From the NCBI RefSeq assembly GCF_910592395.1, contig NC_088314.1, positions 17,583,998 to 17,647,997 of the forward strand: a DNA stretch of 64,000 nucleotides, written 5' to 3'. This DNA is from Lineus longissimus. Taxonomy: Eukaryota; Nemertea; Pilidiophora; Heteronemertea; Lineidae. The notes beneath the pieces are model-generated. The model made no database searches and was not told the DNA's origin. It was given only the letters and a program-made list of their open reading frames with translations. Below are positions 20,437 to 48,270 of the stretch, in pieces (the stretch's first letter is position 1; the number at the start of each line of letters is the position of its first letter). A program made the translations under genes and the position numbers.

Positions 20437-23400
20437 CTAGCTGCTACCGGCAGATTGAGTGGCGTTGTAAATACTCTCAAATAACTGCGCGTAACCACGG
20501 AGTACTTTTTGCGTGTCCCGCATGATGAAGTAGGCCCGGTTATCTCGCATGCTTGTCTCGAGTTTGAAATTGAGATCTTTGAAATAAGTTGGAATTGTTG
20601 TATTTGAGTTGATGCAGTCAGGGGTGGCCATTCCTCCTGCCCTCATCTCGAGCCGGAACGTGCATAGCTGGTTCTGGTAGTATCCGTCCATTTCTTTGAA
20701 CCGCACCACAAGTTTCGAAGGGGTCATTACACCGTCGTTTGTCGGATCGTCTTTGTAAATCACTTCGTTGAAGACCGCTATAACTCTGAGGGCGTGGTTG
20801 GCATTTCTGATGACACCCTGCTCCTGGAGAAAAAATAAACAATAGCGTTATTTGTCGAGTGTATGACATGGCATTCTTACATAGCAGGTTTGGTATTGAT
20901 TAACAATGTTCCGCTGAGTATGAATTCCGGCGATCAATGACTTTGACTCCTGAACAGGAGCAGATATTTTGCCATTTACCATCGCATCGGATAACTGCAA
21001 GATTCTTTGCAGCGCGCTATAGTTAAAACTACGCAGTTATCACTGCAAGAAGCTTACATCGATTATACAATGTAAATTACATATAAGGTTCGCAATTACT
21101 AGCAGTCCAGGAAAAAAGAAATGCAGGTAAACAAAATGCTTAGTAAAGTTGTCATGCATTCGAAATTGCTGAAACTTTGTTTCCATAGTATTTGTATCGG
21201 TTCACACCTGGGAATTGGAAGTTTTCAAATTCAAGCACAAATTTCAAACCTTTTTGCGAACGCTGTTTACGCCTTTACACTTATTTTAACTGGCCTGAAA
21301 ATGCCAAATGTACTGGAGCAGAGTCTTTGTATAGAAAGACTCTGACTGGAGTATCTGCGATCCTTGTTTTTTTTCAGAATTTTTTTTTATTAGGCTGGGA
21401 TAATTTTTTATGCAAAGCGCCTTTAAAGGGGTACACCGTTCGTAATTACTTGACAATGTGGTCCAGTTAAATAGAAATTCACTAATACACAATGCCGTAG
21501 TGCAGTTATTATGAAGACAAATTTCTTGAAAATTGGTATATATAGTATTTGTATATCTGTCTACTCAAAGGCAATGCTGAAAATTATATTCAGTAAGTAT
21601 TTTCGCAATTGAATTCGTATTCAATTTCAAATTCAAAATTTTTAACGAACGGCGTAGACCTTTAAGGTAGTTCAGTTTACAATACATGTACATATAAAGT
21701 GCTATTGAAGAATTTTGCACTGACACTTTGCTTTAAAGATAAAAAACCTGAACGAATGTCCTTTGAATATCATAACGTACCGTTTCATTCCTATCCAATG
21801 CGCTGTCTGGTATGGGTGGGAACCCTTCCACCAATGGAAGATTAGCATCAAGATCTCCTGCATACGATTCGTTAATTCCACTATCAATCATCTGGAAATT
21901 AAGTTAAAAAGACATGTTATAAATGACTGAAAATATCATCTGAAGAACGATCTTTAGAATTAAAAGATGCCGGATTACAAATTACAAAGGAATGCGACTA
22001 CACTCTGAGACTCACATGCATAACCAAACCGGTCATTACTAGCTAGACTCTTCCAAATGTCGTTTGAATAGACATTTACCTGTACTAATACAGATAAAGA
22101 AAAATACTCATATTCTCTTTTACACATTAAGAGGTCAGTCCTTGTAAACTTGGTAATACCATCCACTATTATTTATTGGAAGGTCAAATATACTAATATA
22201 GGCCCTATATCAAGCCCGACTGGTCAGAAATTCATGTACATGTACCACCTGTTAGCCTATCTCTTTCTTTCACATGAGTTCACGCTAGTCTGTCGGGGTT
22301 TTGCGAAATCCCTACTGTTCAGTTCTTCGAGTCGCCCTGCATCATTCTGACTGTTGTATATGTGCCTTCTAGAATCCGGGCCGTGTCAAAACCCAGTCCG
22401 AGGAACTCGATTACATAGTTTAAATCATAAACTTACAAATGCCATCTTTCTCCATTCCAAGTTCATGACCATCTTTGTGAAATTTACGGCCCGCTGTTTA
22501 AAGAATTTTGCTCCTTTCGAACCTAGCGCGGGACCCATAGGCTTATCACCCTCATTGCACGGGTCATTCCAGTAATCGTATGAACAAGTCGCGAGCGGTA
22601 CTGGCGCCCCACAGACCAGTCTTGACGTCATCATGGTTGATGCGACCATCATTATCGTTTGGATTATCGATTTGAGATCTGTAGAAGTGAGAAGAGATTT
22701 TGTTGGAATTTTGTTTGTTTGTTTGTTTGTTTGTCACAGTAAATGTCAAAATCAAAATCACTAAAACGTTGGTTGAGTTCCAAAACATGTAAGCCACGTA
22801 GGCAAGGCATCGGCGGTACCATAGGAATACTCGCAGTTTGCTTTCAAAACGACTCGACTTCAGTGTTGACAGGAACCGAAACTCCGCCATTGGTTTCTAA
22901 GGTGAATTCCACCATGGAGGTATTCACTGAATACATTTGCCATACATTATTTATTTCCCAATATTGGTCAACTATTAATAGGTTATCTCAGTACACGATG
23001 AGGAAGTACAATCATGCATATAAAGACTGACATATGACATTCTTGTTTACAAGAACCGAAACTAGGGCACTATATAATCATAATCACACTATCAAGGTCA
23101 AGAGAAATATGTACTGAATTAATCACATTGCATGATGATTCAACGCCGAGGTGGTATCTAACGGGTGCCTGGGAATTAGATAATTCCGTGATTTATGATG
23201 ATTGTGATGGAGAACATCACTGTAGTTATTCGTCAATTATCATATTAGGCCTTATTCTTGGCAGAGCTTTGAAATTCTAAAAAGCTTCTCCGTTGGTGAT
23301 GACATAATAGATAGAAACCAGTAAGCACCTTTCAACACCATTGTGTCAAGTGAAACAGTTCCGATCCGGTAAGGTTGGACCTTAGGCCTTTTTTTTCCGT

Positions 23401-24220
23401 TGTTTCCGCGTTATCAGTTTCAATGGAACTGCGGCTCAACTACTACTCCAGGTAAATGGCGTCATCATTATAAATCAACCATAATTGGAGGCCATGTCAC
23501 CCTGGCCAATCATTCAATAGTTTTGGGCATTACACAATTACCACAACAGGCGAGGCGGTACTGTTGTTACAACTGGGCCTGGTTGATCAAAACAACTTTT
23601 GTCACTAACGCTGGCGTTAACTTAACATAGCGTTATCTCCTTCAGTTTTGCCCTTAGACTTTATAACGCCAAGTTAACGCCAGCGTTAGTGACAACACTT
23701 GTTTTGAACAAACGGGCCGCTCCATGATGCTGTGAGTTATGAATGGTCACTGGATTTAAGATAAAGATAAAGGTTTTCAACTTTGAAAAAAAATTAATGT
23801 TTTTATCGGCCAACACCATACACCCCGTAAAAAAACTTTCATCGAAGTGAAAACTCGGCGTAATCTACAAAAAAAAAACTCAACGGGGTGCGCATTGTGT
23901 TGGCCGAAAAACCTGTATCTTAACATGATCGTGTAAAATTTCTGAAATGAGATACATGTACCGCCTAGACTTGTCGGGGCCTATCATAAAAGCAATTGTT
24001 GAGAATGCATTTCGAAACGTTCTGAAGTATTTTCTAAGCATGCATCTTAGGCAATTATACATTGCAATAACCATTATCTACGACTCTCTATTTCTTGGGT
24101 ACCAGTATGTAACATCATCAAATAATGAGACTATTGGAAATATTTGTAATATTTATGAGTTCCAACCAGTGGCCTTACATACTAGGGACAGGGGGTTTAA
24201 CTCTACATTTACTTACCCAT
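20437..24220 (-). CDS. Secreted four-helix cytokine-like protein, paralogue 1 (4 exons)
   Basis: Minus-strand coding exons: 24220-24217 (ATG+G), 22678-22437, 21891-21781 and 20823-20437, giving 247 residues. Introns have GT/AG ends and phases 1, 0, 0. The start is the first ATG after a TATA-like box, in context AAAATGG, with the donor gtaagt one base after it. The signal peptide runs to about residue 25 (...RLVCG/APVP). The mature protein begins with CSYDYWNDPC, then helix A (FFKQRAVNFTKMVMNLEWRK), loop VEGFPPIPD, helix B (VIRNANHALRVIAVFNEVI), helix C (FKEMDGYYQNQLCTFRLEM), TPDC, and helix D (YFIMRDTQKVLRGYAQLFE). Four Cys are shared with paralogues 2 and 3. Architecture and intron phases resemble LIF/OSM/CNTF-type cytokines, which are secreted ligands. 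Function is inferred. An unrelated secreted helical family is the alternative. Confidence 0.85.
22711..22734 (+). repeat. (GTTT)n microsatellite in intron 1 of paralogue 1
   Basis: Six GTTT units lie about 30 bp upstream (in the gene's sense) of the acceptor of the signal-peptide exon of cytokine-like gene 1. On the sense strand this reads (AAAC)n and sits next to the branch-point region. Confidence 0.85.
23575..23717. mobile_element. Palindromic MITE (CACTAACGCTGGCGTTAACTT family), full copy
   Basis: The left arm contains TTGTCACTAACGCTGGCGTT and the right arm is its reverse complement, both edged by GGCC(T/C)GNTTGNTCAAAACAA. The element is about 140 bp, has no coding capacity, and lies in the first intron of cytokine-like gene 1. 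A second copy at 43941 is interrupted by another element. Confidence 0.75.
23791..23912. mobile_element. Hairpin MITE (TCGGCCAACAC family), copy 1
   Basis: TCGGCCAACACCATACACCCCGT on the left pairs with ACGGGGTGCGCATTGTGTTGGCCGA on the right. The outer arms carry GGTTTTTC-like pairs. A relative lies at 39798-39953. Non-coding, in intron 1 of cytokine-like gene 1. Confidence 0.7.
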
Positions 24221-24380
24221 TTTCAGTTAATTTCTTGCAAATGAGTTGAGTTTTCACGTTGTCGAATGTCCGATTTTCGTCAATAAAACACGTCGTTGTG
24301 CAGCTTTTTGACCACTGTTTGGCGTCTTGTTCTCGGAGAGAACTTCGGTAACTTTCAGCTCTATCCATCTTGGCCATCGT

Positions 24381-24554
24381 ATTTATTAGGTGATGTATCG
24401 AAATCGAAACTTTTGATGCCTAAACCAAACTTTGCAACCAAGCGAAGTGATCAGCAGTAGCAGCCAGATTTGAATCGAAAATTCGCATGTGGGCTCCGGA
24501 AGTGGTAGTTCGCGCCGGAAGAGTTTCTGTTCCGGACTGGAAACTACCCAATCA
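24381..24554 (-). promoter_or_regulatory. Promoter of cytokine-like gene 1: TATA-like box, IRF/Ets-like module, CCAAT box
   Basis: In minus-strand order: CCAAT box read as TGATTGGG (24554-24548), then 15 bp, then GGAACAGAAACTCTTCCGG (24533-24515), then about 130 bp, then TAATAAAT (24388-24381). The coding ATG is about 165 nt further. The module differs from the ISRE consensus GAAANNGAAACT at one base and abuts an Ets-type TTCCGG. Paralogue 3 has the same parts at the same spacing. Confidence 0.6.
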
Positions 24555-24559
24555 AATCA

Positions 24560-27500
24560 GCGCTTCTTGGCTGCCTCCTTCGCTACCAGGGTCAGCAGAG
24601 CAATCAAAATGAACTTGCAGTTCCGGACGGGATTTTTTGTGTGACAAATGTGAAACCTCTTAAGTGTTTTGCAAACATGAATTTAGGTTGAATACCTCGA
24701 AACGAAAGCTGCGAGTCGTATAGTTTTGTAAGCGGGTTTGACGTATGTAGCTTAGGCGCATTCACCGAACAGTGGTGATTGAGAAAAACAAAAGCAAAAG
24801 CATGTAATTGATCAAATTGGAAAATTATTTCCGAAAATTAGAATAAATTGAAATGCTTACGATGTTTTGCTAATTTTAGTTCCATTCGTCATGTATTGAT
24901 GTGTCTGTTCGATCAGAAGTCAGGATAATTTTCATTGCTTTCTTCAGCAGAAAACGAATGGTGGACGATTTTTATCCAGTTCAGCAGTTCCATAACAAAT
25001 CCACCTGTTGCTCCGGATAGAAATGCAAGATGGTCCGTTGGCACTGACTAAAAGATCGAGTATGTCGCACCGGGTGTGTCAACATCTAAATGAAATGTTC
25101 AAAAAATTAAATCTATTTGAAAGATACATATATGAAATTATATAGAAGTCTTTATTTTTTTTCAACCAAGTTATACATGTATCAATGGTCGTAAACGTTA
25201 AAAAAAACCCGTATGATGAACACTTACAAACCTTCCAAAGTTATGGAACTTACACTTCGTACATCGTCTTAGGGTGTTCCTTCCCTACGAAAAAATTATC
25301 AGGAATTCAGGCCATTATGAGGTCCTCGGTTAACTACCCCACCTATTTAAAGCAAATCTCGGGAAAATAAACATGCTTTTGTGATAATGATTATATCACC
25401 ATCAATATAAAATTAAATTTGCACAATGGTCAACGTGGTGCTATATAGTGCATCAGTGCTTGTACAACAATTCCAGGTCAAAAATCAATTCGAGAAGATT
25501 CTTAAAAGATATATTTAGTGAGGATAAGTTTAGTGCATATGTGAATATACAACCTTTAAAGTATCCTTGTAAGATTACAAACTTTACAAGATCCGTGTAA
25601 GATTCTTTCTTAAGATCTTAACTTAGAATCTTATAGGAATCATGGCACGAATGCACACTCTCATGTATATTGTACACGGAAGCTGAGATGATAATTTTAA
25701 AGAATCTTCTTAAAATATTATCTGTATTTTCGACTCGAGAAGAGTTCAAGCCAATTTCTTTTGAAACTATATAATGACTCAGAAATTGCTTGTAGAATTT
25801 TGATTTTTTTTTCTGATTATAGTACATGTACTTACATGTACTTTGATTTAACATTGTTTTTTATAAAAAAAACTTTTAAACAATGTTTTAAATGATATGT
25901 TGGTGGACGACCACACACCAGAAAACGAGAAAAATGAAAATCGCGAAAAATATATTTCTGATTGGGAAAACTGAAAGAAATGTTAGAATTCGCAAAAATT
26001 GAAAATCGTGAAATTTAAATTTTTCCAGAAATTTTGAATTTTTATTTAAATAAACCTCACACTTTTAAAAGAAAACTTCGCCTATTCCCGTCGCATGAAT
26101 AAATTACGGTCACCAAAACTGATAATAAAATCACTATCGCAGGCTAGTGTAGGCAACATACTTGGGCGACATTCTCCGAATCAATATTTATCAAGACATT
26201 CTTGGAAGATGGCCCACTTTCAAACACGGTAGGCCAAATCAATTTTTATTACATAAATGATACATGTATGTCAATCTCAGATTGAATTGACAAATACATT
26301 GATCTTAACAGCGTCATTAAAACATATTATTTCAAATATCATTTATTTCGTTTGTTTTTATTCAAGAAATGTAAATTCAGTGTGTTTTTGAAATCGGCCT
26401 ACCCCTACAGGATTCTGAATAATATTGAGAGGCTGCAGTGCTACGTCAAGCGCCCAGTATCGTAAAATCTTTAAGCCGCTTCGTTACTCATAACTCCTAC
26501 TTATGCTCTTCATTGGTAAATTGGCATAAAACTAAACCAGGAACAAGCATAACCATATGTTTTGACTGATGGGGCGGCATTACAGTTTTATGATACTGGG
26601 CCCAAGAAAGATAAATAGGAGGTCAGGCTGAACGTCAGGCCTATGAAATTGCAGGCCCTTTGAACATAATTATTCAGACCGAATGAAACGCCTAATCTAA
26701 AATTGCGTAAACTTCGTGCTATTGATTTCTTTGAGTGTCATTTGCAATTTTATTTAAAGGGATGCTGCCCCAACTTTCTTTTAAACTGTGGAACCAGTGA
26801 TGCTTTCCCACGGAATGACACGATAAGGGCCCGGCAATCTGTCCCGACCCTCCCATCGTCTCTCTCGCGCTTCATTGCTAATGAGAACACTCGTGCCAAT
26901 AAAGACTATAATTGGCACCACATCAAAGTATGTCAACAGTGGAGTAGACCTAGTCTTGTAGATAGTGGGTCAACTTCCTAGAAGGTTTTGGACGAATTTG
27001 GTTTCGCCGAATAGGCCCTTGTTACGTTGCCCCTAGCAGTAGTGAAACGTAATCAATAAAATATCGGGCATTTGGAGTCTGTTGGATACTGATACTGATA
27101 CAGAGTTGTAGGCTTCCAAAATAAGAGACATTTATTTAAAATGAGGTAGGTAATTTGGCCTCTTTAAAGTCCATTGCAAACCAATTGCTGCTAGGGCCTT
27201 CTCAGTGTTTTCACCAAAAACTCGTTTTTCTGTTGGTGACATGCAGGCTTATCAGCGGAGTTCGTGAGTCCTAGGGTCATTGTCAAGCCATTGGGCTGAC
27301 GAACAACGCTTGATACATCGGTATGCAGGGAGCGGTAATCGTAGCTAATGAGAGCAGTTTCATAAAGGCAATATTCATCTCTCTATGCCTGCAGAACTGC
27401 TACGAGCAGCACTGTCTACCTGATCAGAAGTTTATTTATTAACCCTGCTCAGTCATTGCACCAGTCAGTGCTTATATGATCAAGCGGCGTCTGTTTAATA

Positions 27501-27923
27501 TGGGAACCTCGGGAGAACCAGGTAAATCTATTAAATACATGCTCATAAGGGAAGAAGGCCCAAAATAGCAAACGCAACAAGTATTTATCAATCTCGTCAA
27601 CGAGTAGACCATCCAACGTTTAGATTACTATAATAGTACCGCTTTTATGACCTAATCCTATTGAAGGAATGAGCTGATTCTGCAAAGATCGCAAAAGAAC
27701 CGCTTGAAACAAAAATCTTTCATTCGGCGATAGGCCTATCCTGGTGATCTCTGAACCAGGGATCGGCAAGGGGCTTGTGTGGGGATGGCCCGACCCCAAG
27801 TTCACTCGTCAATGAGTGTTAATAAATCGACAACTCTGACAACAGTCCAGTCAAATATAAATAATGCAAGCGCCTATTATTTTACACATAATTCTAAACA
27901 GCAAACATTATTTTATGGTGATT
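24560..27923. other. Intergenic, no supported gene
   Basis: AT-rich sequence between paralogues 1 and 2. Open frames are short and lack splice partners. No copy of the YWNDPC or RGY exons was found here, so there is no extra paralogue or relic between these two genes. Confidence 0.55.
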
Positions 27924-30900
27924 TTAGAGGTCATATTCCTCCCCATTCGACATTTCGTAAATCCTCCGAAACACATTTTCGTAACCTCGCACGATATTCT
28001 GGGAGTCCCGGATCATGAGAAATTGGCGGTCATGGCGCCTGGCAGGGTCGTGCTCCGGTTGTGTTAGTGCGCTTGGAATGACGCTGAAATCCACACAATT
28101 CGGTGTGCGTATCCGCCGCAATCTCATCTCTACGCGTAACTCGCACAGCTGGTGTTCATAGTAAAATTCCATTTCATGAAACACTCTGCCAAGGCGCCAG
28201 GGCGTGGATTTAGGAGGTGACCGTTCTCGTTTTAGTTCTCTGACAATGTTCCTATTCAAGACTGCAATACCCATTAGGGCATTCGTGGCGTTTGCTATGA
28301 CATCTTCCTTCTAAAAAAAGGAAAAGAATTCAACGATTGCAATTGCAAAATGTGCACGCTGTTTTACCTAGGCAGGTAGCCAATTCAATGAAAGATGTGC
28401 AGCATTCCATTGCCCTATGTTCCTATGTACAGTGACAACGTGTGTGTAAATTTCATTTAAATGTTGTCTTTGGTGTTCAAGTAAGGTAAAAAGAGAAATG
28501 CCAGTCAAAATGTCAACAGTATTGCTCAAGAGTCACCTATAGAAATTACACCAATGATAAATTAACCCACCATCCTGTTTCCATGCTGCCCTAAGCCTCT
28601 TCTACCTCGCATTAACTGATGGAAATGTTGTTTTAAACTATGACCTTTATCCGTCCAGAACAAAAACAGATCCAGAAATAATCATACAGGTGCTTCATGG
28701 CACTTGATTGACAGATATCACTTGAGACACCTACAAGCAACGTCTCGAGGACCATTTGGGACATTGCAAGTTTTGACAAGTTTTCTTCAATTGGCTGTCC
28801 AATAAAGGATGACAAAGTTTTCTGCTCCATATTCTTAGAATGAGCACAGAAATACCAGATATATATATACGGACTAAATATTATTAACATGCAAGAAACG
28901 AATCAAGATAATCAGACTTAGAAGTTTGGCGCATTGTTTTCCATTTGATATAAACCGTACCTCAGTGTCCACACCAACCGTCACCACCGGTACTGCCGGT
29001 AGCCCGGCTAAGTGAGGTTCATTCCTACTCAAGAGATCCAGGTATCTTATCTGAAAAAGAATCACTCAGACATCAACTTTTATGCACCATCAAGAAATTT
29101 TACAATTCGGAAACGCGAAATATTGCTATCTCCCTCATAATGGGATATTCTTTCCAATTGTGTTTCATCCCCCGATAAGTCAAACCCGATATCCATGCTT
29201 AAAGCTACCAGGTGACACAAAAAAGGTTGTATGATTTTGATCTTGAATTACTCCGAAAATATAAATTTATTCTAACAACAAAATGTCGGCCACATGGCGC
29301 TGAGATCAACACGTTTGTTTTAAAGTTTGTTGAGACGACACCAATGTTTGAATATTCCTAGTGTACATTGCTTATTCGCAATGTATGATGTGATGAGTTG
29401 TACCAAAATGCATATCATTATGTACGATATTTTGATTATAATGCCAGGCCTTACTAATGCTCTATTTCCAGAAAAAGCTGATTGATACCTGATATCATTT
29501 TAAGCAGTTTAAGCTGGTTACAGCTGACTCGGGCCCAAGGTGACACACTTGAAGCAATACAAACATTGTTAGCATAAGGCCAGGTCAAATTTGAAATAGG
29601 ATTATCGTCACAGCCTTCACTTAAAATCGGGAAGGGAATTTTTTTCAAAAATTCAGCTCGCTCTCAGAACCAGCCTAAATGATCACCTTTCAATCACTGT
29701 TGATTCTGCTGAATTGTAAGTCACACGAAATAAGAAAATGCACCAGTTGCCTTTTTGGCATATATGTTAAGAAATGTCAGTGTTATCTTAAGTTTTTTAA
29801 GACACCCTGTAAAGAAAAAGTCACCACTGGCTATTTTTGGCATGATGTTAATAAATGTCAGTGTCAGCGATTTTTGAGACACCCTGTGAAAAAAAAAGAA
29901 ATGGAAGATAGAAAATATTTTCGATGCATCAGAGAAAAGGGCGAGTTGTCACTTTAACCTGGCCTTTTATCAGTTTTTAGGCGCTTTTAAATTGTGTAAA
30001 ATCTTCAAGTTGAGATTATTTTGTTAACGTGATCTATCCTTGCATAAGAGGTCTTTGTATCGTTTCTGACATTCACTCCATCAACGTTCGAGTGCATTGA
30101 AAACCGACCCGGAGTCCTTTAGCGGGAGGGGGACGTTATCGATGACCTATGGTTTTTTTTCTAACAGATAAGATGAGATTATGATCCTACGATATAATAC
30201 GTTACAAATTATGATCGATGAGTTAATGGCAGCGTGGCCAATCTGAACGGCTCGGAGGCGCTGTGCTGTGTAACGCAGTACCATTCGGTCTATTTTCCCG
30301 TTAGATAAGCTCTAATACTAGTACATAAGTTTTCCTTACCTCTGAATTTGGGATAGGATTCTATTAAACATGTTAAAGGTTAACGATGATATGAATGTAA
30401 CACCCAACAGACAATGAATTTTATCACATGTACTATCAGAGATGTATGAGGATGTCCCTATGCATTTTTTGTATGTATATTGTATAGTTCCACCTATCTC
30501 AGGCCGGTACTAAATATAAGATTCAAGCCAAGTATTATGAACTTGGTCGTTGGATGCATTCAAACACGTTCAATTTCGATAAATACGCTGACAAGTTGTC
30601 CGATGCTTATGACGCCATGATCCGGCTTTGCCATTTTGCCGGTTTTGCAACATTTCTCAAAATCTTGGAGCAAATTATGGTACAAACTCATGATTAATAT
30701 CAAGAATTGATAATGACTAGTCTTTATTAAGTCTTATCAATATGCATTGAAACATTTGATGAAATAGCAGTATTGACTTCACAAAACCGAAAAGAATCCC
30801 AACTGTATCATTTAATACTAATTTAACTCACATAGTACTCCATCCTCCATTCCAAATATCCAACGATTCGGCGTAATGCGTCTGCCATTTCAAGAAAGAA

Positions 30901-31454
30901 CACATCGCCTTTCGATCGTTGATTGGGGTCTGCTGGGCGACCATCATCGCCACAGGGGTCATTCCAATACCCTGAACACGACCCGGTGGCTGTTGACGTC
31001 GGGGCCCCTCGGACACCTAGTGACGTCATCGTGGCGGATACAAGTAGCACCGCGCAAAAGAACTTTATGAAAGCTGTGGGTGCAATAAATGATTTAAAAT
31101 TAAGAGTTGGGTCTGCCAGATACGGTAGCTGGGAAAGGTTAATGATTTTTGTAAAACCTTTGAAAAAAGATCCAGAAATGTTTCGATCGATGGTCTAATT
31201 ATCTCCATAAGTGTCCCGGCGTTATCGTTGTACCACCTTACCTGACAATTTCTCATTTATGGGAATGAGCAGCAGTGTAGCAGCAGTGTATACACTGCTG
31301 GAATAAGGCATAGTTCAAATATTACTGGTCAAAAATCCTGTCACGGGTATCGTTTTTCATTGCAGAATGTTAAACACTCGGGTTTAGGATGTTGGGGGTG
31401 CAACAAACGAACACATGAAATAGTATTTTCAAAAACATCGCGGTACTCACCCAT
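27924..31454 (-). CDS. Secreted four-helix cytokine-like protein, paralogue 2 (4 exons)
   Basis: Minus-strand coding exons: 31454-31451 (ATG+G), 31073-30832, 29050-28961 and 28310-27924, giving 240 residues with intron phases 1, 0, 0. The start ATG is followed after one base by the donor gtgagt. The signal peptide is clear (MAFIKFFCAVLLVSATMTS..., cut near VRG/APTS). The mature protein has CSGYWNDPC, helix A (FFLEMADALRRIVGYLEWRM), a shorter second exon (30 rather than 37 codons) with LAGLPAVPVV, helix B (VIANATNALMGIAVLNRNIV), helix C (VFHEMEFYYEHQLCELRVEM), TPNC, and helix D (FLMIRDSQNIVRGYENVFRR). The last exon resembles paralogue 3 most, sharing SVIP and RHDR. One N-glycosylation site (NAT) sits in helix B, also in paralogue 3. 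It is probably a secreted ligand as for paralogue 1; no domain search was possible. Confidence 0.85.
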
Positions 31455-31550
31455 TTTAGATGAATCTGTGACAAGTTGTCTGTCTTTTCAAGGGTTGCCA
31501 AATGCACGTTTAGTCGATAACGTCAAGACTTTCGTAGGGAGATGGTAAAT

Positions 31551-31796
31551 TTTTATATACTTCTGATCGTTGCTATAATTTCGAAAATTTGATACTTCTT
31601 CCATTTTTGACACGGTTTTTATATGCTGGTGATACGAGTGGAAGTGAAATTTTTGGGTGTCATCAAATGTTGCACAGGTGCAAACTGATCAGTAGCATTG
31701 TTGTGAGTGATGGAAATTGAAAAACCGCGTGGGTTTAATGATATAATCAATATGTGTTATTGGAAATTGCACGTAGGATCCGGAGTTTTTGGTTCC
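31551..31796 (-). promoter_or_regulatory. Promoter of cytokine-like gene 2: TATA box and diverged upstream module
   Basis: GTATATAAAA (minus strand, 31560-31551) is a strong TATA box about 100 nt before the ATG, and no other ATG lies between. Further upstream, GGAACCAAAAACTCCGG (31796-31780) is a looser version of the IRF/Ets-like module of paralogues 1 and 3. Its spacing to the TATA box is longer (about 220 bp), and the CCAAT box is not at the shared distance. Confidence 0.5.
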
Positions 31797-36707: not shown

Positions 36708-37179
36708 AGGTGACCTGAAACGCTTTTATTATAATTTCAACTTGGGTTGTAAATTATAGGGCATAACATAAGAAACACAAGTGTGAAAACCACATAAATA
36801 TCGAACTACTCATCTTAAAGTTATATCAATGTGTAATTCAAACATTCCAGGTGGTACAAGAAGAACAAATTGATGATGTACATTGTGCTGTACTGAAATA
36901 AAGTTTTGATAGTTTCATGCTTATACCTTTAAATACCTTTAGTGAACATGTTAAGGTCCAATTTTAGAATATATGCATCAAACTATAAAAAAAATTATTT
37001 CTGTACAGCACAATGTACATCATCAGTTTGTGCTTCCTGCACCACCTGGAATGTTTGAATTTTATACCTGCCATAACTTGAAGATGGGTAGTTCGATATT
37101 TATGCGGTTTTCACTATTGTGTTTGTTATCTTATGCCCTATTATTTTTTCTCTAAGTTAAAAAGTTTTGCATGTGACCT
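36708..37179. mobile_element. TTAA-target foldback MITE with ~200-bp arms (472 bp)
   Basis: The ends AGGTGACCTGAAAC and (inverted) AGGTCACATGCAAAAC are flanked by TTAA on both sides (36704-36707 and 37180-37183). The arms pair over about 200 bp, for example GTGATGTACATTGTGCTGTA-type sequence with its complement near 37000, leaving a short loop at about 36920-36970. TTAA targets are used by piggyBac and Kolobok elements. No coding sequence is present. Confidence 0.8.
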
Positions 37180-38942
37180 TTAACATTGCTAGGACCTAGT
37201 CCATACTAGTTATGACCAAAAAAAACATTGTCATAAAAAAACTATTTGACGCTACTTTTGCACTTAGCATTCTAAATTGCATGCAATTCAAAACAACTTC
37301 TTTGCAAAACAATATGAATATTCAAAAGAGGCCAGCTCCTTAGAATTATCTAACACGTTAGTATTTCCACAAAAAAAATGCTGACTTATACCAAACTCAA
37401 ACTCGGTAGATTATTGTACAATGTAGCACTCGGTAGAATTAACATCATATAAACCATTTGCACCTCACCTCATTTGACGATGCATTATACAATAAGAAAT
37501 TGACAGCAATACTTATGAAGTGACAAAATGAAAACAAAAAATGATGAAAATGAAACAAAATGAAAACAAATAGTGGTTTGGAGTACATGACATTGTGCGT
37601 GGGAAGGTTAGTCTTGGACTATTCCTGAATTCAACGGTTGACCATAGCATAGGCAGCACTATTTTTGTTAGAACGTGAAATCCTGAAGCAATTAGAGCTC
37701 CTCCAAGTGAATGTCAATTTCAAGGGTTTGAGTTGGTTCTCTGGCATTTGGCATTCACTTTGTTTTGAAAGAGTTCTAGTTGTTTTCGGATTTCGAGTTT
37801 CAGCCAAAATGGTGGTGTCTATGGTCAATAATGTGACATGTCAACAAGCGACTTCTACTATACCCTGCTTGCCTCTATGTGTCTACAAGTAGGCGGCAGC
37901 AACATAATCCAGTCCGATTTCTTGAAATTTCATTTCAACATACACTTAAGAAAATACAATATTTTGTGACAAAACGAAACCTAATGAAAATTCGTAAAAA
38001 CTTAAATTTGGGAATAGTCCATCAATTTGTATAAACCTCTGTCAAAGACCATTATTTATATCAACAAAAACAAAACACTTAATAGTGTTTGAAACACAAC
38101 TCTATTAACAAAACAAATAAGGATTCGTATTCTGAAATCGACTCTATGAGAGACGTGTTGGTTATTTGTATCCGTACAGCTTATCATACCCACCCAGCTT
38201 TTTACAAAATAGCTCAAATTTGATGTCTTAGAATCTTACAATGTCCATTTTTCATTTTCGATAAAATAACAAGCTATCTGATGTCTTACATATCTGAGTC
38301 GATTTTAGAGTAATCTAAATTTGTCAAAGTTCAATTGGAATATACAATGGATATACTCGGTGGACATCGGCGAAATAGCACATAACATGCGTATAGCAGA
38401 ATGATTAGAAGTTAACTAACAGTTAAATATTTGAGAACGAACCAATACAGGTGTAGGCCTACAACTGTAATAAAAAAATGATTTAGAACTCACCGGAAGA
38501 GCAAAAATGCCTCGAAATAAGAAACTGACTTGTACAAACTGTCGGTTTAAACGGAATGAGCGAGAGCGTTTAAGCCCAGATTCTGTCCAAAAATACTTTA
38601 AAAAAATGCAGGTATAAAAAATCTGATTGAAAGGACTCTTGGTTATTATTTGTGCTATATAAAACCATTGGGAAAATATGATGCCTGGGTTTAAATAGTA
38701 GGGCTTTCGACCTTTATATGCTCTGGACGGGCTGATTATCACCAAGGAAAGACCAGATTAGTCCCTTATTGGCATATCATATGAATATCACGACATAAAT
38801 ATTGTCGAGTCAAACCACACACCAAACCCACCCGTGCTTTGGATTTTGTCCTCGGGCACGAAGTTTTCCCAATGCAATACTGTCAAGTAAAAGGCACCAA
38901 TTACATAAATGTACACCAATCTCTCACAAAATTCAATCATCT

Positions 38943-38943
<1 letters not shown>

Positions 38944-38981
<38 letters not shown>
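38944..38981 (+). repeat. Uninterrupted run of 38 C
   Basis: The longest of at least a dozen G or C homopolymers in the window. Its exact length may be affected by sequencing or assembly. Confidence 0.9.
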
Positions 38982-38982
<1 letters not shown>

Positions 38983-39797
38983 TTGCATATGTAGAGCACC
39001 TATTGCCCGTACTTAGTCTGCAAACATGATACCGCGAACCGCCGTTGTCCGGTTATGCTACATGTATTTGAGAGAGTCTACCGCGTCCCCAAGCCCTATA
39101 GACAAATTAACCTCGTGCCAATATTTTGTTTGCAGACAGATATAATAGACGACAGCACGTTACTAAAGGATCCCACGCATGATGACCGGTATGATTGCCA
39201 AGAAAGTGGGTCAATATTATCGAAATGTTTCGAGATACCACGATTCGCTGAATGCACGTTCAGTGAATTGATGTAGTGAAGGGCATTGATACTGATACTG
39301 AAAAAGTATCAGCACAGACGGTGGATTTTATCATGATTTTTTAGGTATGTATTTGAATAAAGCCAACAATAGCACCTCTGATTTTAGACGATAACTACTT
39401 TGAGGGAGAACATTTTTGAAAAAAAATGTCAAATCATAATTTTTTGTTTCCAAAAAAGTGGCAAAATGCTACCGCGTATAATGTCCGAGGTAAAATGTTC
39501 TTACAGTTTTGTTCTGTACACTACGTGCATAGGTGGGAAGTAGTATATCGCGGTGAAGTATTCGTCGTATTTGGTTTAAACAGGCCGCTATAACTCAACC
39601 GGCTCTGAGCAGCGACCTTCGTCTAATTTGGAGGTCACGTTGGGATTAGGCAGCCAAATAGTTCCATAAAAGGCCTTGGACTTAAAATCGATTGTTGATC
39701 ATTAAAATAGATAAAGTATGTAATACATGATAAAAAGATACTACCTTGACTACACTGTCAGAAAAAAAGGTTTTTGAGCTCCTGCAAAATCATTAAA

Positions 39798-39953
39798 CCT
39801 TTCTCGGCCAACATAAATATGCATCCCGTATATAGAGGTTTTTTGGTGGAATCGAAAATCCCAAGTGGTTTTTGAGATACTGAAAAACCTCTTAGGGTTT
39901 TTTACTTCACTGAAAAACCTCTACGGGTGGATATTCGTGTTGGCCGAAAAACA
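39798..39953. mobile_element. Hairpin MITE (TCGGCCAACA family), copy 2
   Basis: TTCTCGGCCAACATAAATAT...CCCGTATATAGAGGTTTTT pairs with AAAAACCTCTACGGGTGGAT...GTGTTGGCCGAAAAA. It is related to the copy at 23791-23912 through the terminal TCGGCCAACA and the internal CCCG. Confidence 0.7.
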
Positions 39954-41347
39954 TTTCAAGCTTTTTTCAAAAGCTGAAAAAAAATCTTTATTTTTAAGAG
40001 TGTATGTCAAAGTTAGTCATAACTGCATATTTAGCAGTTGAAATTAAACGTTGTAATTATTGATCAATCACTATGTCAGCACAACGTAAGCGAGATAGCT
40101 GGGCCCTCAAACTAACAGAAACCATACCAAATGACATCTCCGTCGTCATATTTAAGCTGTCCAATCACCTACGACAACCCCCAGTTCAACTTGAGCAGCA
40201 AATAATATCACTCGGGTTACAAATAGCTGACAGCTTATTATAGGATGATAAATTGGTCCATGATGTTTAAAATAGCATGGGATTTTTAATACATGTATAA
40301 TGAATAGACAAAAGTGTGGCTATTTTGACTTTTCGCATAGAACATCATTCAGCTAAATTCCGATATTTGGCAAAATACATGTACTTTCTATACAGGTTAG
40401 TGCCAAAATATTATATTCTTTCACCGAAAGAAACTTTGTAAGAGTATACTACATAAAACCTTCATACTCTAGACTCACCGATCTGACACCGTTTTTGAAT
40501 ATGCAAGCCCCGATGCCATTCAACATAGCCGATAGAGGGGCCACACCTAGTTGTCTAACATTTCTGATGTTCATGACATCATGTCCCGGTCTTGACGTTT
40601 TTTGTGTCGATATCACAGCAAGGGTTCAGCATGACAGGAAGATAGGCCCTTGAGCCTATCAGGTATGTGCATTGTGCGGGGGGAGAGGCTTGCCCGGAGA
40701 GAACCGGTGATAGATCGGTGAGTCTAGAGTAAACATTGTTGTGTATTCTAGGCCTGTTTTTCCGTTTTCTGGAATGCTTTTTGAAAACATCTTTTAAATA
40801 GTTTTGTGTACACATACATACGTAACTACCAAGTAGCCACTTTTCTCAAATAAGTTAAAATAAGCATATCTTATAGCTTACAATAATACATTAAACATAA
40901 TAAATAACTCTACATGTCTTGGTCAAGGGGAGATGGTCTCAGAGACTCTCAATCGTGTAAACTGTAACCTGCCAAAACCGAAAAGATATTCGTGGGAAAA
41001 ACCGAAACATATTACGTATTCTTCCAAAATGGTTTTTTTTAAGTCTGAAATTAGGCTGTTTACTGTATGTTCGATTGCCCTGAAAACGTTCCGATACTGC
41101 TCCCTGTTTCCAGCTCGACCTCTCCAAGACTTCTTGGATTTCTAAGACGGCCTATAGCGCCATCTAACAAAGAAAATAGTTTGAAACCATGCACTTAAAG
41201 CGCTACCTGTTAACTGGAACCCAGTTATATCAATATTGCGACGATCTGATCTCCCAAGCAATGTTATTCCCCATGCGAATTGTATGAATTTTTTTTAAAT
41301 GGTTTGCTGTGCATCACCAAAAACAAAAGCTAATAATCCTGTCAGTC

Positions 41348-44300
41348 TCACTTCCTTCCAGTTTGCGAATTTCTCGGCCCAGTCTCAGCGTAAATTCTTG
41401 CAAATTGCATTGAATACCCCCGGATTATTTTCTGCGAGTCCCGGATGGCAAAGTAGTCTCGATCGTGTCGACTGCTTCGGTCGTCCTGCTGCTGTCTCAG
41501 TGCGCGTGGAATGACGCTTAAGTCTTGGCAATCCGGTGGGGCCATTCGCCTCGCTCTCATCTCTTCACGCAGACGACAGAGATTGTCTTGATAATATCCC
41601 TGCATCTCTTGGAAATATTTCGCGAAGGGCGAACTTGGCGCCTCTATAGCTATTTCATCAATGATGATTTGCTCATTAAACACGGCGATAGTCATGAGAT
41701 CTCTTGTTGCATTTTTGATAACATCTTTCTCCTATAAAGTAAAGAGGAAATCTGATTAAAGGAAATAAATAAGGAACTATTTTGTATTTTGCGCCCACTA
41801 TTAACAGGAAACATTTTCTGAGTAGACACTTCCTGATTCGACAAGATGTCGTGATTTTGCTTGTTAACGGCAGACGAAATACGGAGTCATTCTAAATCAC
41901 CGAAATCCGTGTACTTAGGTAACCTTTAGAACACAAGCGAATATGGATTTGACCATAACCACATTTTTTGGAGTGAATCAAGGAGTGGAGAAAGTCGACA
42001 TCTCCTGCAGTGAAATACCTTCTGATATTTGCTGATTGTTGTTAGTTGAGACTGTGTTTAGATCTTAATCATGTCGCACTACAAAAACATCGACTGCAAC
42101 ACATACTAGTACCTTATTTTTTAGATCCATGGTATAGTCTGGTACGACTGGTAGTCCGTCTAGATGTTTCAGATTCTCGTCCAGATAATTTAAGTAGCCC
42201 ATATCTCTAATTCTATCATCAATCTGAAAAACAGCATGAACAAAATTTAGTAACCTTGGTCGATATTAGCGAGGTTAAGATTTCGTTAGCATCAGCGTTA
42301 ACGTTAGCGTACGAAATATTCACCTAACTGCATTTAGTATGACTGTTTTCCCGACACCAAAACTTAAGGTTTCGCACGCAATATGAATTCACTGGTCGAA
42401 AACGTTTCGCCGCCCTCGCTTGCTCAAATTGGATACGATATCAATCAGAAAGCTTGTTTTCTTCGCTATTTACAGGTGGATGAAACGTCGATAATAGCTT
42501 GAGGCGTGTTTAGATACCATCAATGAATTTTGAAGCTATAAAAGTCAATCATTGAAAAAAAGCCTCTTTTTAAACAAATGGGTTAATCATGTGAAATTGA
42601 TAAGAATTAGTACGTGAACTGAACTTACATGTACTAGTTTTTATCAATTAAATATGATCATATGCTGACACGAATTAAAGCCTAATTCAAAAAGCATTTT
42701 CCCGCTGCAAGGAAGCACCAATCTGTCGAAGCAAATCTGGGCCCCAGAGGTTATATTGTAATTCAAAGTTCTCAATTCCAATTTATGTCACTAAACGCGA
42801 CCACTGGGACCGCCCTAGTTGAATCGGGCCTTTTTGAAATGAACTGTGGGAATGATATGTTTCGTTCTGGCAAATATCTGTGGAGTTGATATGAATAAGA
42901 TGTGTTAGACATCTAATGTAATGAAGCTAGATTTAAACCACAACCGACACAGATTGCGCTTGCGCAACCTTGTGATTGATTTGATTCCGACACCTTCACG
43001 CCTTTTTCCCACATGCGTGATTTAACCCGCTTCTTTTCTACCACCGGACAAACAGCATTCCCAAGCCAAACCCGTCCTCATTTTGAAAAGAAATATTCAA
43101 AATGTTTTGCACCTTTTCACACAGCGAGCAAAATAACTTCAGTCACGGGAAAACAATAATACCTGCATCGTCTTAAAACAGTGAATCAGACGTTGGATAT
43201 GATAACCTGGGTGCATTCGACCGTCAACCTGTCCAAATCATGAAATAAAATGTAAATGTAAAATGCATTTGGCTTTGCCTTGGCAACAGCTATAACCGTC
43301 TGGTTTGGGTACCAAATTTGGACACAGTATGGTACATCACGTAATCTCAGCAAACACCTGCAGGGCAGACCCTCGGCGAACCGCCTTGGAATTTTTAATA
43401 TTTTTGCTACATCCTTGCTTACACAACCGATACCAACACGAGCTTGTTCGAGTCAGTGCAGCAGCTGTAGTAAGGAACCGAAACTGGACAAAAATTTCCA
43501 AGCTTTTTCCCCATTTTGATGAAATGCATCGCTGCATCTCGTCTGCCGCGCGCAGGCTCATGCTTTACAATTGAGGGAGTTTTCGCAAAGCGGAAGATAT
43601 TGTGTGATGGGTAAAAAGCCCAAAATAATCCGTATTCAGTCCAAAGATACTTTTCCAAAAATGTTTAATTTTCAATACATGTAGTTGTGAATCGCCAAAA
43701 AAGGATGAAAATTTACGTAAAACGAACAAAAATAAATATAGTCTGTAAACCGCAAATTTTCCCACTTCGAATAGGCGCATTTGGAAACGATTTGGCAAAA
43801 TTTTCACGACTTTATGATTGGGGCTTCTTCGCGAAATGTACGAACATATAACGCGAAGATTTGGCGGTTTGTGAAACCCAAATATTATGATTATTTTGTT
43901 AAGATGCACTTGGTTACTAGGATCTATGCGTTTTCTTACAGGCCCGATTGTTCAAAACAAGCCTTGTCACTAACGCTGGCGTTAACTTAACTTGGCGTTA
44001 AGTCTAAAGGGCTTAACTAAAGGAGATAACGCCAAGTTGAGTTAAAGGGGACTGAAACCGCCAAGCCAGTTCGTATGACCTCGTTTTCACTTCCCGCGTA
44101 TCGGGTGATCAGAACGAGGCATGAATGAAACATGGCGCCTAGCTGTCAATCATTGAGTGACGTCACTACTATGGAATTTACTACGAAAACTAATAAATGA
44201 AAGATCGCATGACTCACGTGATTCGCACATGATTCTCAATAATAACAAACTGAACTGCGCATGCTCGGGCACTGGGGGCGGAGCTACAAATCTGAACTCG

Positions 44301-47300
44301 AATAGGAAGTTGGAAGTTTGACTTTCTCGGCGGTGAAAGTCGAAAAGTTGAATAAATCGCTCGGCGGTTCCAGTTCCCTTTAACGCCGACGGGGGGGGGG
44401 GGAGAAGGAGGTCAACGATAACTTTATAACATATAATGATGCAACTTACATATTCTCTTTTCCTTCGTTCCAAACATTTATAAAGAAAGCCGAAAGCTGC
44501 GGCTTCTTTCTTGAAAAACGCAGGCCCTTCTGATGTTGGCGGGACGTCCGTCGGGCGGTCTCCATTATTACATGGGTCATTCCAATAATCTTGCGAACAG
44601 GAGGCTGATTTCCCGTTGACTGGTGCCCCTGTGACATGTTGTGACGTCATCACTGTTGCCGTGATTACCAATATCAAGTGACTGATGTCGATATCTGCAA
44701 TTTAAAAAAAAATCACTTTATTATAGATTATGGCCGAGGATACACAAATATTATTTGTTGACTTGAAAATTGAAATCGCAATTTAAGTCGCATCTCAGAG
44801 CATTTCATAAGGTCGCATCTCAAAGCATTGAGAGCTTAATGAAGGAATAGGACAAAATAGCCGAATGTAAGTACAGTCCTTCCCACACGGAAGTATTCGG
44901 GAATATGCGAGTCTCATACACGCTCTGACCCCAGAGAAGTTACTGATCAACCCTCTGGTTTTGCTCGTTTAAACCACAATTATACATGCATTGAATTCGA
45001 CATTTACGCCTTTCCAGCAACATCGAAGATCTCTATGAAAATTATTCATTGGGACATGAGCAGAATTGAAATATATTGGCAATAACTTTCTAACGCTGGA
45101 CCCTATATTTTGTCATCCAAGTGACACTGACTTTTAATAGAATACCTTCTTAAACATCTCTTGCATTTGTCGTAATTCTGAAAATTTCAACTTCAGTAAC
45201 TGTCGGGTAAGTTCACTCCACTGAAAATGTGTTTTTTTAAATCAACAACGCCACCCTATTCGAAAATATTGCTAAATAAGACTAATTCTACGAAGCACAG
45301 TTCACTGCTGTGCTTGCCGCCACGACAAAAGTAGACTCCAGCGGATATTTAGCAATTTGAATAACCAGATATATATGGCACTGGCAGTTGATAGGGAACG
45401 GATGAATATTCTTAAGATTCCAACCGCACCAGTGGTAATATCACTGATTACAAAATAACCGCTGGAGCCGAGTATCGTATAGTGGAATCAGTCCCAAAGC
45501 CATTGTGGAGTTTTACTTGTGTTGAATTGCATAATGGTTTCCTCTTTGTCGTGGCGCTTAGATTAAGCTTGCTGCTTGTCTGTATCCTTGATGAAACTAA
45601 ATTTGTGATGTATGTCATCATTTATATTCTATAGCTACCTTCAAATGCAGCAATTTGATTGGCTTGCAGTAAATTTTGAAAACGAGGCTGTTGTCAGGAA
45701 CTGGAAATACGATTGGGACTTCCAAGGTTGATTCCTGCTTTACAATGCTAGCATTCATTTAAATGTGTTGTTACGAATCGGAACTAAGTGGTTTCCGGTC
45801 CAGCACAGTGTTGTTACAAACCGAAACTATTTTACGTGTTATTACAAACTCACAAACCCAAACTAGATTTGGCCTTCTCATGTGATTTTCTCTTTGCAGT
45901 GCTTCGAACGTTCATATATACTAACTTTGTTAAGAACCGAAACTAAATTTGGATATCCTAGGTAATTCCCTAGTTGCAGTGCCAGGGCACATGTTGCAAT
46001 AGACCGCAACTCAAGTCTGAGGTTCGTGTACAACGTTGTTGTCAGGAAGCGAAACCAAGTGGGGATTTCCGAGGTGAATTCCATAGCGTTCTACGCCGAG
46101 GCAATGCTGTATGTATATATTATATTGATCAGGCTAGAGTATAGGGAGTTTTTGCAAACCTCTGGCATAAAGCCATCACAGAAACTACATACTTGCATTT
46201 GTAACTGTCTAGGCGGGGAACTATGCCTATTTTTTTAATGTATAATATTGTTTGCGTAATTCTACTACAAGACCAACGAATTATTAAAGGCAAAGTGCCT
46301 TTGCACATGCATGTATGTACAGTGTTTAATTGTGACTGGAATGTACACAAAAGGAGTTCATAGGTCCACTATGCACCTATGTCGAGGGGGGGGGGGTACC
46401 ATTTGGGGAGCTGTGACCATTTGTTCTTGCATATTGCTAGTCATTGATACAATAAGATGTATGATTGTCCAACCCAATGATTAGAAGTGAACGAGACGAC
46501 GTTTACATCAAAAAAAGAAATTGACTCAGTATTTTTCGAGACGCTCATAATTATCTCAGCGCACAATGATGTATGATGCCAACGATATTTAGTAATACAG
46601 TCGACAGTATTCAGAAGTGCTCTCCCTCCGAAATGGTACCAAAAATAAAAGCCAAATTTTGTTTTTACTCAATCAACGAAATCGAAATGATATACATATG
46701 TACTGTAAAACGTTAAATTTTCGTGCCTTTTTATATTTGCGATTCGTGAAAATCACTTGGGCGGATCGCGAAAATATTTTCCGACTAATAAAATTCGTGA
46801 TCCGCAAATATAAAACGCTTGCGAAGATTTGGTAGTTTACAGGACATGCATGAAATGACCTTAATATTGCACTTAAGATTTTTTTTGACGTGAGACGACA
46901 CGAGATGTCTCGAGGTTCTCGTGATAAACAAATAGTGCTGGCCTAAATTACGGAAAGAAACATGGTCTCGTTGATTGTCTATGGTAATTGCATAAGTGCA
47001 AATTGGTCAAGAATAACTGGGTGAACAGAAAAGTGTGTGCGACACGAAATTATTCTTTGCAAAAACTGTCAAATCGAGAAGGCACTTTCTGGACATGTGT
47101 TGTTGTTATGTGGGGGAATCTGGTGATGTTTTTTAAACATCTTGTTAGATTCATTTCATAGTTCTTTTTTCATTCCTGTAGTCAAAGATATTTTTTTACT
47201 CGTGTTGTTTTTTTCATGATAAAACTGTGTAACACAAATAAGATATATCAGATTTTTCTCATTCGCATGTTCTAAGTTATGTCATTTGTGTGATATCCAT

Positions 47301-48115
47301 TATCATATAGCATTTAAAACAAAATGAAACAACTTCATCACCGTTTCCAGTGTTCAAAATGACGGGCCTCAATTATAAAATAATGACATTGCACAACGGG
47401 CATGTGAACATCGTGGGTAAAATCAAGCAAGGGTCCCCATAAAAAATTATGTTTATTGACGTACTTTGCCTTTCTATTGCGTGGTTTCTCAGCCAACCTT
47501 CAGTTAACTGCATTCATTAAGACAAAGCTGATTACTACGCACAGTCTTTCACTAAATTAAAAAAAGAACCTTATACTTAACTAATTTGGACGAATAATTA
47601 TATCATAAATCACCCGGGAGCATCAGCACCACATTTCCCGAGGGCGTTCTTAAATTAACAATTTTTTTGTCAAAATCACTCAAACTGCTCTGATATTGTA
47701 TGTAAATTTGCATTCTTTTGCCAGTGTTGTCGTCACTCTGTTATACTGTTAGCTCTGCTAGGAGCCGTCCTTTTAAAAATTCATCTTATTTACATTTGTA
47801 ATTTGTATAGTATAATTTATGTGCTCTATGCGGTGTATTATTTTGTTGGGCAATAAATTCTATTCTGTTCTATTCTATTCTCGGCTCGGCTCGGCTCGGC
47901 TCGGCTCGGCTCGGAGCAAAGTACGTCTCGTGAAAATGTCATCCCTCACCACGAGGTAATCACGCAAACAAAGAAAAAATGTTAATTAGTTGCATCAAAA
48001 TCATAATCAGATTGCTCGAAAATACTTTAATTGGTAATCGATCCGAGTCGAATCGAGGCATGCCCTCGGGAAAGGTGGTGCTGATTCTCAAGGGTTGATG
48101 TGTTTACTTACTCAT
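41348..48115 (-). CDS. Secreted four-helix cytokine-like protein, paralogue 3 (4 exons)
   Basis: Minus-strand coding exons: 48115-48112 (ATG+A), 44694-44450, 42223-42113 and 41731-41348, giving 247 residues. Introns are GT/AG with phases 1, 0, 0, sized 3417, 2226 and 381 bp. The start is the first ATG after a TATA box, and the donor gtaagt follows one base later. Signal peptide MNIDISHLILVITATVMTSQ... is cut near VTG/APVN. Then come CSQDYWNDPC, helix A (FFKKEAAAFGFLYKCLERRK) running into exon 3 (RIRDMGYLNYLDENLKHL), loop DGLPVVPD, helix B (VIKNATRDLMTIAVFNEQI), helix C (FQEMQGYYQDNLCRLREEMR), PPDC, and helix D (YFAIRDSQKIIRGYSMQFAR). An extra Cys sits in helix A (KCLERR). Introns are loaded with MITEs and an array of GAACCGAAACT-like motifs. 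Assignment as a cytokine-like ligand is inference from fold order and Cys placement. Confidence 0.85.
43743..43875. mobile_element. MITE with CTGTAAACCGC ends (intron of paralogue 3)
   Basis: Left CTGTAAACCGCAAATTTTCC and right GCGAAGATTTGGCGGTTTGT are imperfect inverted ends. They relate to the elements at 46701, 54142 and 63028, which share AAATTT(T)CG/CGAAAATTTGGCGGTT. Confidence 0.6.
43941..44390. mobile_element. Palindromic MITE, copy 2, split by a nested TTAA element
   Basis: GGCCCGATTGTTCAAAACAA and TTGTCACTAACGCTGGCGTT match the left arm of the element at 23575. After ATAACGCCAAGTTGAG the copy is interrupted at TTAA by the 44046-44379 element. It resumes as TTAACGCCGACG before being cut off at a poly-G run. 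It lies between exons 2 and 3 of paralogue 3. Confidence 0.7.
44046..44379. mobile_element. 334-bp TTAA-target MITE nested in another MITE
   Basis: Ends AGGGGACTGAAACCGCC and (inverted) AGGGAACTGGAACCGCCGAG are flanked by TTAA at 44042-44045 and 44380-44383. The terminal AGGNGACTGAAAC resembles the ends of the foldback element at 36708-37179, suggesting one superfamily (piggyBac or Kolobok). Its right end is about 70 bp from coding exon 2 of paralogue 3. Confidence 0.75.
45670..46085 (+). repeat. Degenerate tandem array with GTTGTNANGAACCGAAACTA units
   Basis: Six or seven diverged units can be followed: GTTGTCAGGAACTGGAAATA, GTTGTTACGAATCGGAACTA, GTTGTTACAAACCGAAACTA, TTGTTAAGAACCGAAACTAA and GTTGTCAGGAAGCGAAACCA. 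Several are followed by GGATTTCC..AGGTGAATTCC. Single units occur at 22865-22920 and 23044-23063 in intron 1 of paralogue 1. The array is in the first intron of paralogue 3. Confidence 0.65.
46701..46843. mobile_element. MITE with CTGTAAA(A)C ends
   Basis: CTGTAAAACGTTAAATTTTC on the left mirrors CGAAGATTTGGTAGTTTACA on the right. The interior has paired TCGTGAAAAT/ATTTTCCGAC and TTTGCGATTCGTG/CGTGATCCGCAAA. It is related to the other AAATTTTCG MITEs in the window. In intron 1 of paralogue 3. Confidence 0.65.
47700..47880 (+). mobile_element. 3' tail of a truncated CR1/L2-type LINE
   Basis: The sequence ends GGGCAATAAATTCTATTCTG-TTCTATTCTATTC, a polyadenylation-like AATAAA followed by an ATTCT microsatellite. 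This is a common 3' terminus of CR1-like non-LTR elements. No coding part is left. It differs in sequence from the LINE at 10840-13945. Confidence 0.6.
47881..47914 (+). repeat. (TCGGC)n pentanucleotide repeat
   Basis: Six or more perfect TCGGC units directly follow the LINE tail. Confidence 0.9.
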
Positions 48116-48270
48116 ATTTTATCCTTTCGTCGTCAAAATCAAAATCCTTAAAGTTGTCGTTTTTGAACGTATACGATTTTTCCGGTGATATCCTTCGCTT
48201 CCTTCCGTTTGAGGTTACTCTTCTCAAACTGTTCTCAATTAATGTGCGGTTCTCCATTTTGGTGTGTGTT

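Follow-up and report, generated by a model that had tools for sequence, protein, structure and literature searches.

We describe three intact genes with a conserved exon structure and protein-level constraint in a 64,000-nucleotide stretch of the genome of the nemertean Lineus longissimus (assembly GCF_910592395.1, contig NC_088314.1, positions 17,583,998 to 17,647,997; hereafter the window). The encoded proteins resemble four-helix cytokines most and match no described family, and they may represent an undescribed kind of cytokine. Based on gene structure, protein features, a predicted model and sequence scores, we put at about even the chance that these functional paralogues encode secreted, cysteine-stabilised, diverged long-chain four-helix ligands like the class I (haematopoietin/gp130-type) cytokines.

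All three genes lie on the minus strand in the same orientation, and window positions are used throughout (Table 1). The original prediction was of three same-strand paralogues of 240-247 residues, and re-reading the exons, introns and phases bears it out in coordinates and lengths. With splicing predicted from the DNA sequence, the nine introns all have GT/AG ends and the phases run 1-0-0 in each of the three genes. In every copy the first coding exon ends with the ATG and one further base, and is followed by exons of 242-245, 90-111 and 384-387 bases, the last including the stop codon. The joined proteins have 247 (gene 1), 240 (gene 2) and 247 residues (gene 3), and the products of genes 2 and 3 are, respectively, 34% and 42% identical to that of gene 1. 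The window carries three copies of the family: in a profile search of its six-frame translation, exons 2, 3 and 4 each gave three strong matches, with the next match at an expect value (E) of 1.9, 0.33 and 0.32, respectively.

The pattern of sequence change among the copies identifies them as coding. At codon positions one, two and three, the three gene pairs differ at 108, 91 and 151 sites, at 99, 84 and 147 sites, and at 100, 80 and 133 sites. Pairwise nonsynonymous divergence (dN) is 0.52-0.65 against a saturated synonymous divergence (dS) of 1.86-3.09, for a ratio of about 0.17-0.30. Given that third codon positions vary most and that dN is below dS, the reading frames are constrained at the level of the protein. 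A nucleotide comparison of the three loci returned six aligned pieces, of which three are exonic, two come from one intronic repeat and one lies upstream; genes 1 and 2 have no aligned piece between them. That we are looking at chance open frames or dead copies is a reading to which we give almost no weight, being opposed by the codon-position pattern and dN/dS, by splice sites that agree across copies and by two further homologues recovered from metagenomes with a profile of the last exon. The same evidence upholds the earlier claim that the regularity of the copies is beyond what chance frames could produce, and the chance or pseudogene reading was rejected.

To place the family we searched protein and genome collections. 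Against a set of 5.8 billion proteins, the last-exon profile found two proteins from metagenome contigs (E = 3.2e-41 and 8.9e-31; two of the 226 candidates at E <= 1), which are 70% and 52% identical to gene 3 (over 84% and 80% of it, respectively). Both last-exon cysteines and the RGY, YY and RxEMR motifs are retained in the two proteins. Judged by their sequences, they would most simply derive from other animals; alternatively, they may be extra copies from this very genome. Rerunning the last-exon search with both proteins added returned the same two among 703 candidates and none that was new, and a full-length search of the same set gave 5195 candidates, none of them at E <= 0.01. There were no relatives among 197 pattern matches in prokaryote genome contigs or 85 in viral contigs. 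No Pfam family matched the three proteins even at E 10, the sequences of solved structures (PDB) held no match to the family, and profile comparison with typed-in LIF, OSM, CNTF, CLCF1 and CTF1 sequences gave no match and no significant similarity to a known class I member. Rfam gave no match in the window at gathering scores. As a yardstick, a typed-in human CTF1 sequence reaches its accepted relative CLCF1 in PDB at an E of only 0.0034; because this match is so weak, failure of profiles is to be expected in this superfamily even within vertebrates. Three copies, two further homologues and no Pfam, PDB or cytokine-profile match support the proposal that the genes form a small, intact family of secreted proteins belonging to no named family.

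The N-termini of the proteins are hydrophobic (19-residue mean 1.35-1.87) and no later stretch in any of the three exceeds 1.14. Given a hydrophobic N-terminus without a second stretch to equal it, a secreted protein is likely, and secretion with no other membrane span is fairly supported by these sequence profiles. The signal peptide, read from the sequence by eye, ends near GA/P, and the mature length is about 215-220 residues. Four cysteines are invariant, at residues 33, 42, 173 and 189 in gene 1, 34, 42, 168 and 184 in gene 2, and 34, 43, 172 and 188 in gene 3. The first two, seven or eight residues apart, lie around the motif YWNDPC and ahead of the presumed helix A; the third is placed within presumed helix C and the fourth in the loop that follows this helix. 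Two motifs are also invariant, YWNDPC close to the N-terminus and RGY close to the C-terminus, and the predicted YWNDPC-to-RGY architecture with four fixed cysteines thus holds in all three aligned proteins.

AlphaFold2 was run on exon 4 alone, with helix A and the crossover loop outside the model. An alignment of three sequences gave a predicted local distance difference test (pLDDT) score of 50.6, and an alignment of five gave, for gene 3, a pLDDT of 59.4 and a predicted template modelling score of 0.47, which is low confidence. The gene 3 model has helices at residues 2-29, 35-60 and 85-117 and a turn at 76-79 (exon numbering), with five residues between the first two helices and 24 before the last. 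A short link followed by a long one would suit an up-up-down-down bundle in which these are helices B, C and D. On the model, that topology is likely and the helical nature of the last exon is fairly supported. In sequence, the hydrophobic moment at 100 degrees exceeds that of shuffles for helix B (p = 0.024) and is marginal for helices A (p = 0.065) and D (p = 0.11). In a structure comparison CNTF fits the exon-4 model and is the sole cytokine among the 50 matches listed; that no other cytokine is among those 50 proves nothing. Most of the others are ferritin/Dps-like proteins, and the family might instead have a non-cytokine four-helix fold, for example a secreted ferritin-like or COQ9-like bundle. 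We consider this quite improbable, since helical bundles attain such Z values without kinship and the last exon holds no conserved di-iron ligand set: its 28 invariant columns across five sequences (the first 16 residues being uncovered in one) include no His, one Glu and one Asp. The ferritin-like reading was rejected on the absence of conserved di-iron Glu/His ligands from the last exon.

The plan of the genes offers a further comparison. EPO, IL-6 and GCSF genes have introns in phases 1-0-0, the first of them just past the ATG, with the signal peptide and helix A in exon 2 and a separate exon for the A-B loop. Our family agrees with this class I rule in its phase-1 intron near the ATG, its phase-0 introns and its A-B loop exon.

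We also scored the proteins by global alignment against 15 typed-in human sequences, with z-scores summed over the three proteins relative to shuffled controls under five scoring schemes. The highest summed z-scores belong to GCSF (2.3-4.4), EPO (2.7-3.8), CLCF1 (2.3-2.7), LIF (1.2-3.1) and IL6 (0.9-2.7). PRL, CTF1 and CNTF rank next, and the lowest group is made up of IL-10, OSM, IL-11, IFNA2, leptin, myoglobin and GH1 (GH1 negative in five of five schemes; IFNA2, leptin, myoglobin and IL10 at most 1.5). When cysteine was made neutral and six of the 15 were rerun, the values were 4.1 for GCSF, 3.4 for EPO, 3.0 for CLCF1, 2.5 for IL6, -0.95 for GH1 and 0.59 for myoglobin. We take this ranking as a hint of order and not as proof, since 15 typed-in sequences were compared and OSM, IL-11 and CNTF are not prominent among them. 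In the LIF alignment, nine of the 12 family cysteines (three of four per protein) fall on LIF cysteines, a number reached by two of 500 shuffles. They align with cysteines 4, 10 and 123 of a typed-in LIF fragment, which we take to be LIF C12, C18 and C131, the residues that tie the N-terminus to helix C; the LIF disulphides are C12-C134 and C18-C131. On these alignments the cysteine match is the most specific single resemblance, yet it appears to be driven by cysteine itself. Together with the intron phases of the LIF gene (1, then 0), it is what would argue for a narrower form of the cytokine reading, in which the family is a true LIF/OSM ortholog group kept since the bilaterian ancestor. We regard this narrower form as unlikely: the LIF score vanishes once cysteine is neutral, OSM does not stand out, and neither a Pfam family (at E 10) nor a subfamily profile matches.

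Several of our results weigh against class I cytokine-like ligands. No profile links the family to any class I cytokine family, and ferritin-like bundles fit the exon-4 model as well as CNTF does. Amphipathic periodicity is absent from helix C (p = 0.52); of the "three more amphipathic helices" first described, all three are helical in the model, but B alone stands above shuffles, D being marginal and C not amphipathic. Shuffles that keep the hydrophobic pattern give z-scores of 0.8-2.5 for GCSF, 1.7-3.7 for EPO, 0.9-3.4 for LIF, 0.2-1.8 for IL6 and 2.2-2.9 for CLCF1. The accepted relatives OSM, IL-11, CNTF and CTF1 have z-scores of at most 1.5, and LIF falls to 0.43 with cysteine neutral, so its score rests on cysteine. 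Finally, reversed sequences, which are expected to give nil, reach 2.4 for OSM and 1.7 for LIF, and the noise of the method is therefore comparable to several of the signals.

The missing profile link, the equal fit of ferritin-like bundles to a low-confidence model and the reversed-sequence scores of up to 2.4 would all suit secreted helical proteins of some other function, such as a defence effector, a gamete or mucus protein or a lineage-specific secreted orphan, with a cytokine likeness due to common arrangement only. A small cluster in which the copies have diverged this far from gene 1 is also like fast-evolving effectors. We treat this as a serious contender, somewhat short of an even chance, because no Pfam domain of a known effector or enzyme was found, the scores weakly favour several class I cytokines over other helical proteins, and the exon phases agree with those of class I cytokine genes. 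The original label of four-helix, cytokine-like proteins thus remains plausible on its three long helices and fitting link lengths, but it is tempered by the confidence of the model and the lack of a profile link to the class I family; likewise, the fold search that was suggested against cytokines did return CNTF, but with ferritin/Dps-like bundles alongside.

For the reading as cytokine-like ligands, we propose the following mechanism. Helix A would come from exon 2, and the long A-B crossover needed for an up-up-down-down bundle from exon 3; exon 4, as in the low-confidence prediction, would supply helices B, C and D, B and C being joined by a short link and C and D by a long one. As in LIF, the N-terminal cysteine pair would be held to helix C and to the C-D loop. 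Once released, the mature protein would bind a class I-type (gp130/Domeless-like) receptor and signal through JAK-STAT, and the three diverged copies may differ in expression or receptor preference. In its most far-reaching form, which we find possible but doubtful, the proposal is that these are the missing ligands of gp130/Domeless-like receptors in a non-vertebrate animal. The family would share ancestry with the vertebrate GCSF, IL-6, LIF and EPO group, would have diverged too far for profiles to detect and grown into a cluster, and would be recognisable by its YWNDPC N-terminus and RGY helix D.

Table 1. Coding exons of the three genes and the upstream block common to genes 1 and 3 (window positions).
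Feature	Position	Strand	Details
Gene 1 coding exon 1 (ATG + 1 base, phase 1)	24217..24220	-	donor gtaagtaa
Gene 1 exon 2: signal peptide, YWNDPC motif, putative helix A	22437..22678	-	242 bases; acceptor ..cttctacag, donor gtaagttt
Gene 1 exon 3: Pro-containing A-B loop	21781..21891	-	111 bases, phase 0-0
Gene 1 exon 4: putative helices B, C, D and stop	20437..20823	-	387 bases including stop
Gene 2 coding exon 1 (ATG + 1 base, phase 1)	31451..31454	-	donor gtgagtac
Gene 2 exon 2: signal peptide, YWNDPC motif, putative helix A	30832..31073	-	242 bases
Gene 2 exon 3: A-B loop	28961..29050	-	90 bases
Gene 2 exon 4: putative helices B, C, D and stop	27924..28310	-	387 bases including stop
Gene 3 coding exon 1 (ATG + 1 base, phase 1)	48112..48115	-	donor gtaagtaa
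Gene 3 exon 2: signal peptide, YWNDPC motif, putative helix A	44450..44694	-	245 bases
Gene 3 exon 3: A-B loop	42113..42223	-	111 bases
Gene 3 exon 4: putative helices B, C, D and stop	41348..41731	-	384 bases including stop; AlphaFold2 model
Upstream block, putative promoter element, common to genes 1 and 3	24473..24533	-	~253-313 bases before gene 1 ATG
Upstream block, putative promoter element, common to genes 1 and 3	48374..48436	-	~259-321 bases before gene 3 ATG

The upstream block of genes 1 and 3 is identical in 48 of 63 aligned columns, and TGATTGG occurs nearby in both. No further copy was found in the window at E <= 0.01, and none within 1 kb upstream of gene 2. Because the block stands at an equal distance from both genes, it supports the placement of the first exon in genes 1 and 3. 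Upstream ATGs occur at -157 and -148 from the presumed start of gene 1 and at -142 from that of gene 3 (24220-24400 and 48115-48260, minus strand); their frames overlap the presumed start and reach exon 2 out of frame. As read from the sequence, they possibly reflect translational control, or the true start may lie elsewhere. TATAWAW matches lie at -105 and -103 from the gene 2 ATG. Within 800 bases upstream, TATA-like matches occur at genes 2 and 3 and STAT-like patterns at genes 1 and 2, counts that carry no chance expectation and from which we conclude nothing; of the kB patterns sought over the same distance, none was found.

Other features of the window include a short repeat common to intron 1 of gene 1 (23576-23718) and intron 2 of gene 3 (43941-44045), which aligns in both orientations and is probably a small mobile element. 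An inverted repeat lies between genes 2 and 3, with 90-base arms (36735-36824 and 37073-37162) that are 83% complementary and 248 bases apart. A 978-residue open frame at 11004-13940 (minus strand) has endonuclease and reverse transcriptase domains (RVT_1, E 1.8e-29) and is apparently the frame of a non-LTR (long terminal repeat) retrotransposon. Exon-like frames at 13884-16800 (plus strand) perhaps belong to one secreted gene; they contain a domain of discoidin/F5-F8 type C-like character (E 1e-6) and match a PAN-like domain weakly (E 5e-4, which does not reach its cut-off). In the list of open reading frames, two near-identical plus-strand frames about 450 bases apart (50894-51184 and 51339-51653) point to a local direct duplication. 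Two adjoining long frames at 58441-59388 and 59918-60943 (plus strand; 315 and 341 residues) look like paralogues by eye, since both begin with FIPPI-[EK]-F; neither has a Pfam match at E 0.1.

The literature gives a context for such a family. According to a 2026 survey, IL-6 was found in vertebrates only among 18 phyla or subphyla, the other ligands being Upd in insects and a lectin in crustaceans, while IL6R-like receptors reach back to molluscs, from which JAK-STAT is likewise reported (PMC13203501). The survey relied on BLAST with cut-offs of E <= 1e-5 and 30% identity or more (PMC13203501). Such cut-offs make it unlikely to have detected a family like ours. A 2007 study describes a gp130-like receptor and CLF-3 from the sea squirt (PMC1963337), and the CLCF1 gene is described as having three exons (PMC8780587). 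Among the literature matches listed, vertebrates and arthropods were the only animals for which we found a helical class I ligand; the motif was not used as a query. Given that receptors and JAK-STAT are reported from molluscs without ligands, a conserved, clustered family of secreted helical proteins is a concrete and testable candidate. How its genes are laid out would also help to decide if class I cytokines are older than the vertebrates.

Among known systems, ferritin/Dps-like bundles share a similar three-helix arrangement with the exon-4 model, whereas our family lacks the conserved di-iron ligand set and has a signal peptide and conserved cysteines. GCSF, IL-6, CLCF1, CNTF and EPO are, like our proteins, secreted and encoded with a long first helix in one exon and the loop in a separate one; they also share the arrangement seen in the family's model, in which helices B and C are closely linked and C and D are joined by a longer stretch. 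Weak but ordered sequence scores add to this likeness for GCSF, EPO, CLCF1 and IL6, unlike CNTF, whose score against the family is low. The family differs from the vertebrate long-chain class I cytokines in having no detectable profile similarity to them and in placing B, C and D in one exon, in contrast to the five-exon vertebrate class I genes; those cytokines are not known to carry YWNDPC or RGY motifs. Having B-C-D within one last exon is also the plan of LIF and OSM, from which the family differs by the extra intron that sets its A-B loop apart. With LIF, the cysteine pair before helix A and the helix-C cysteine line up, although the family's fourth cysteine is unaligned and the similarity lies in cysteine alone; OSM differs by its low score. 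Lastly, the family would share with Drosophila Upd, the ligand of Domeless, the role of a non-vertebrate ligand of a gp130-like receptor; the survey names Upd for insects alone (PMC13203501).

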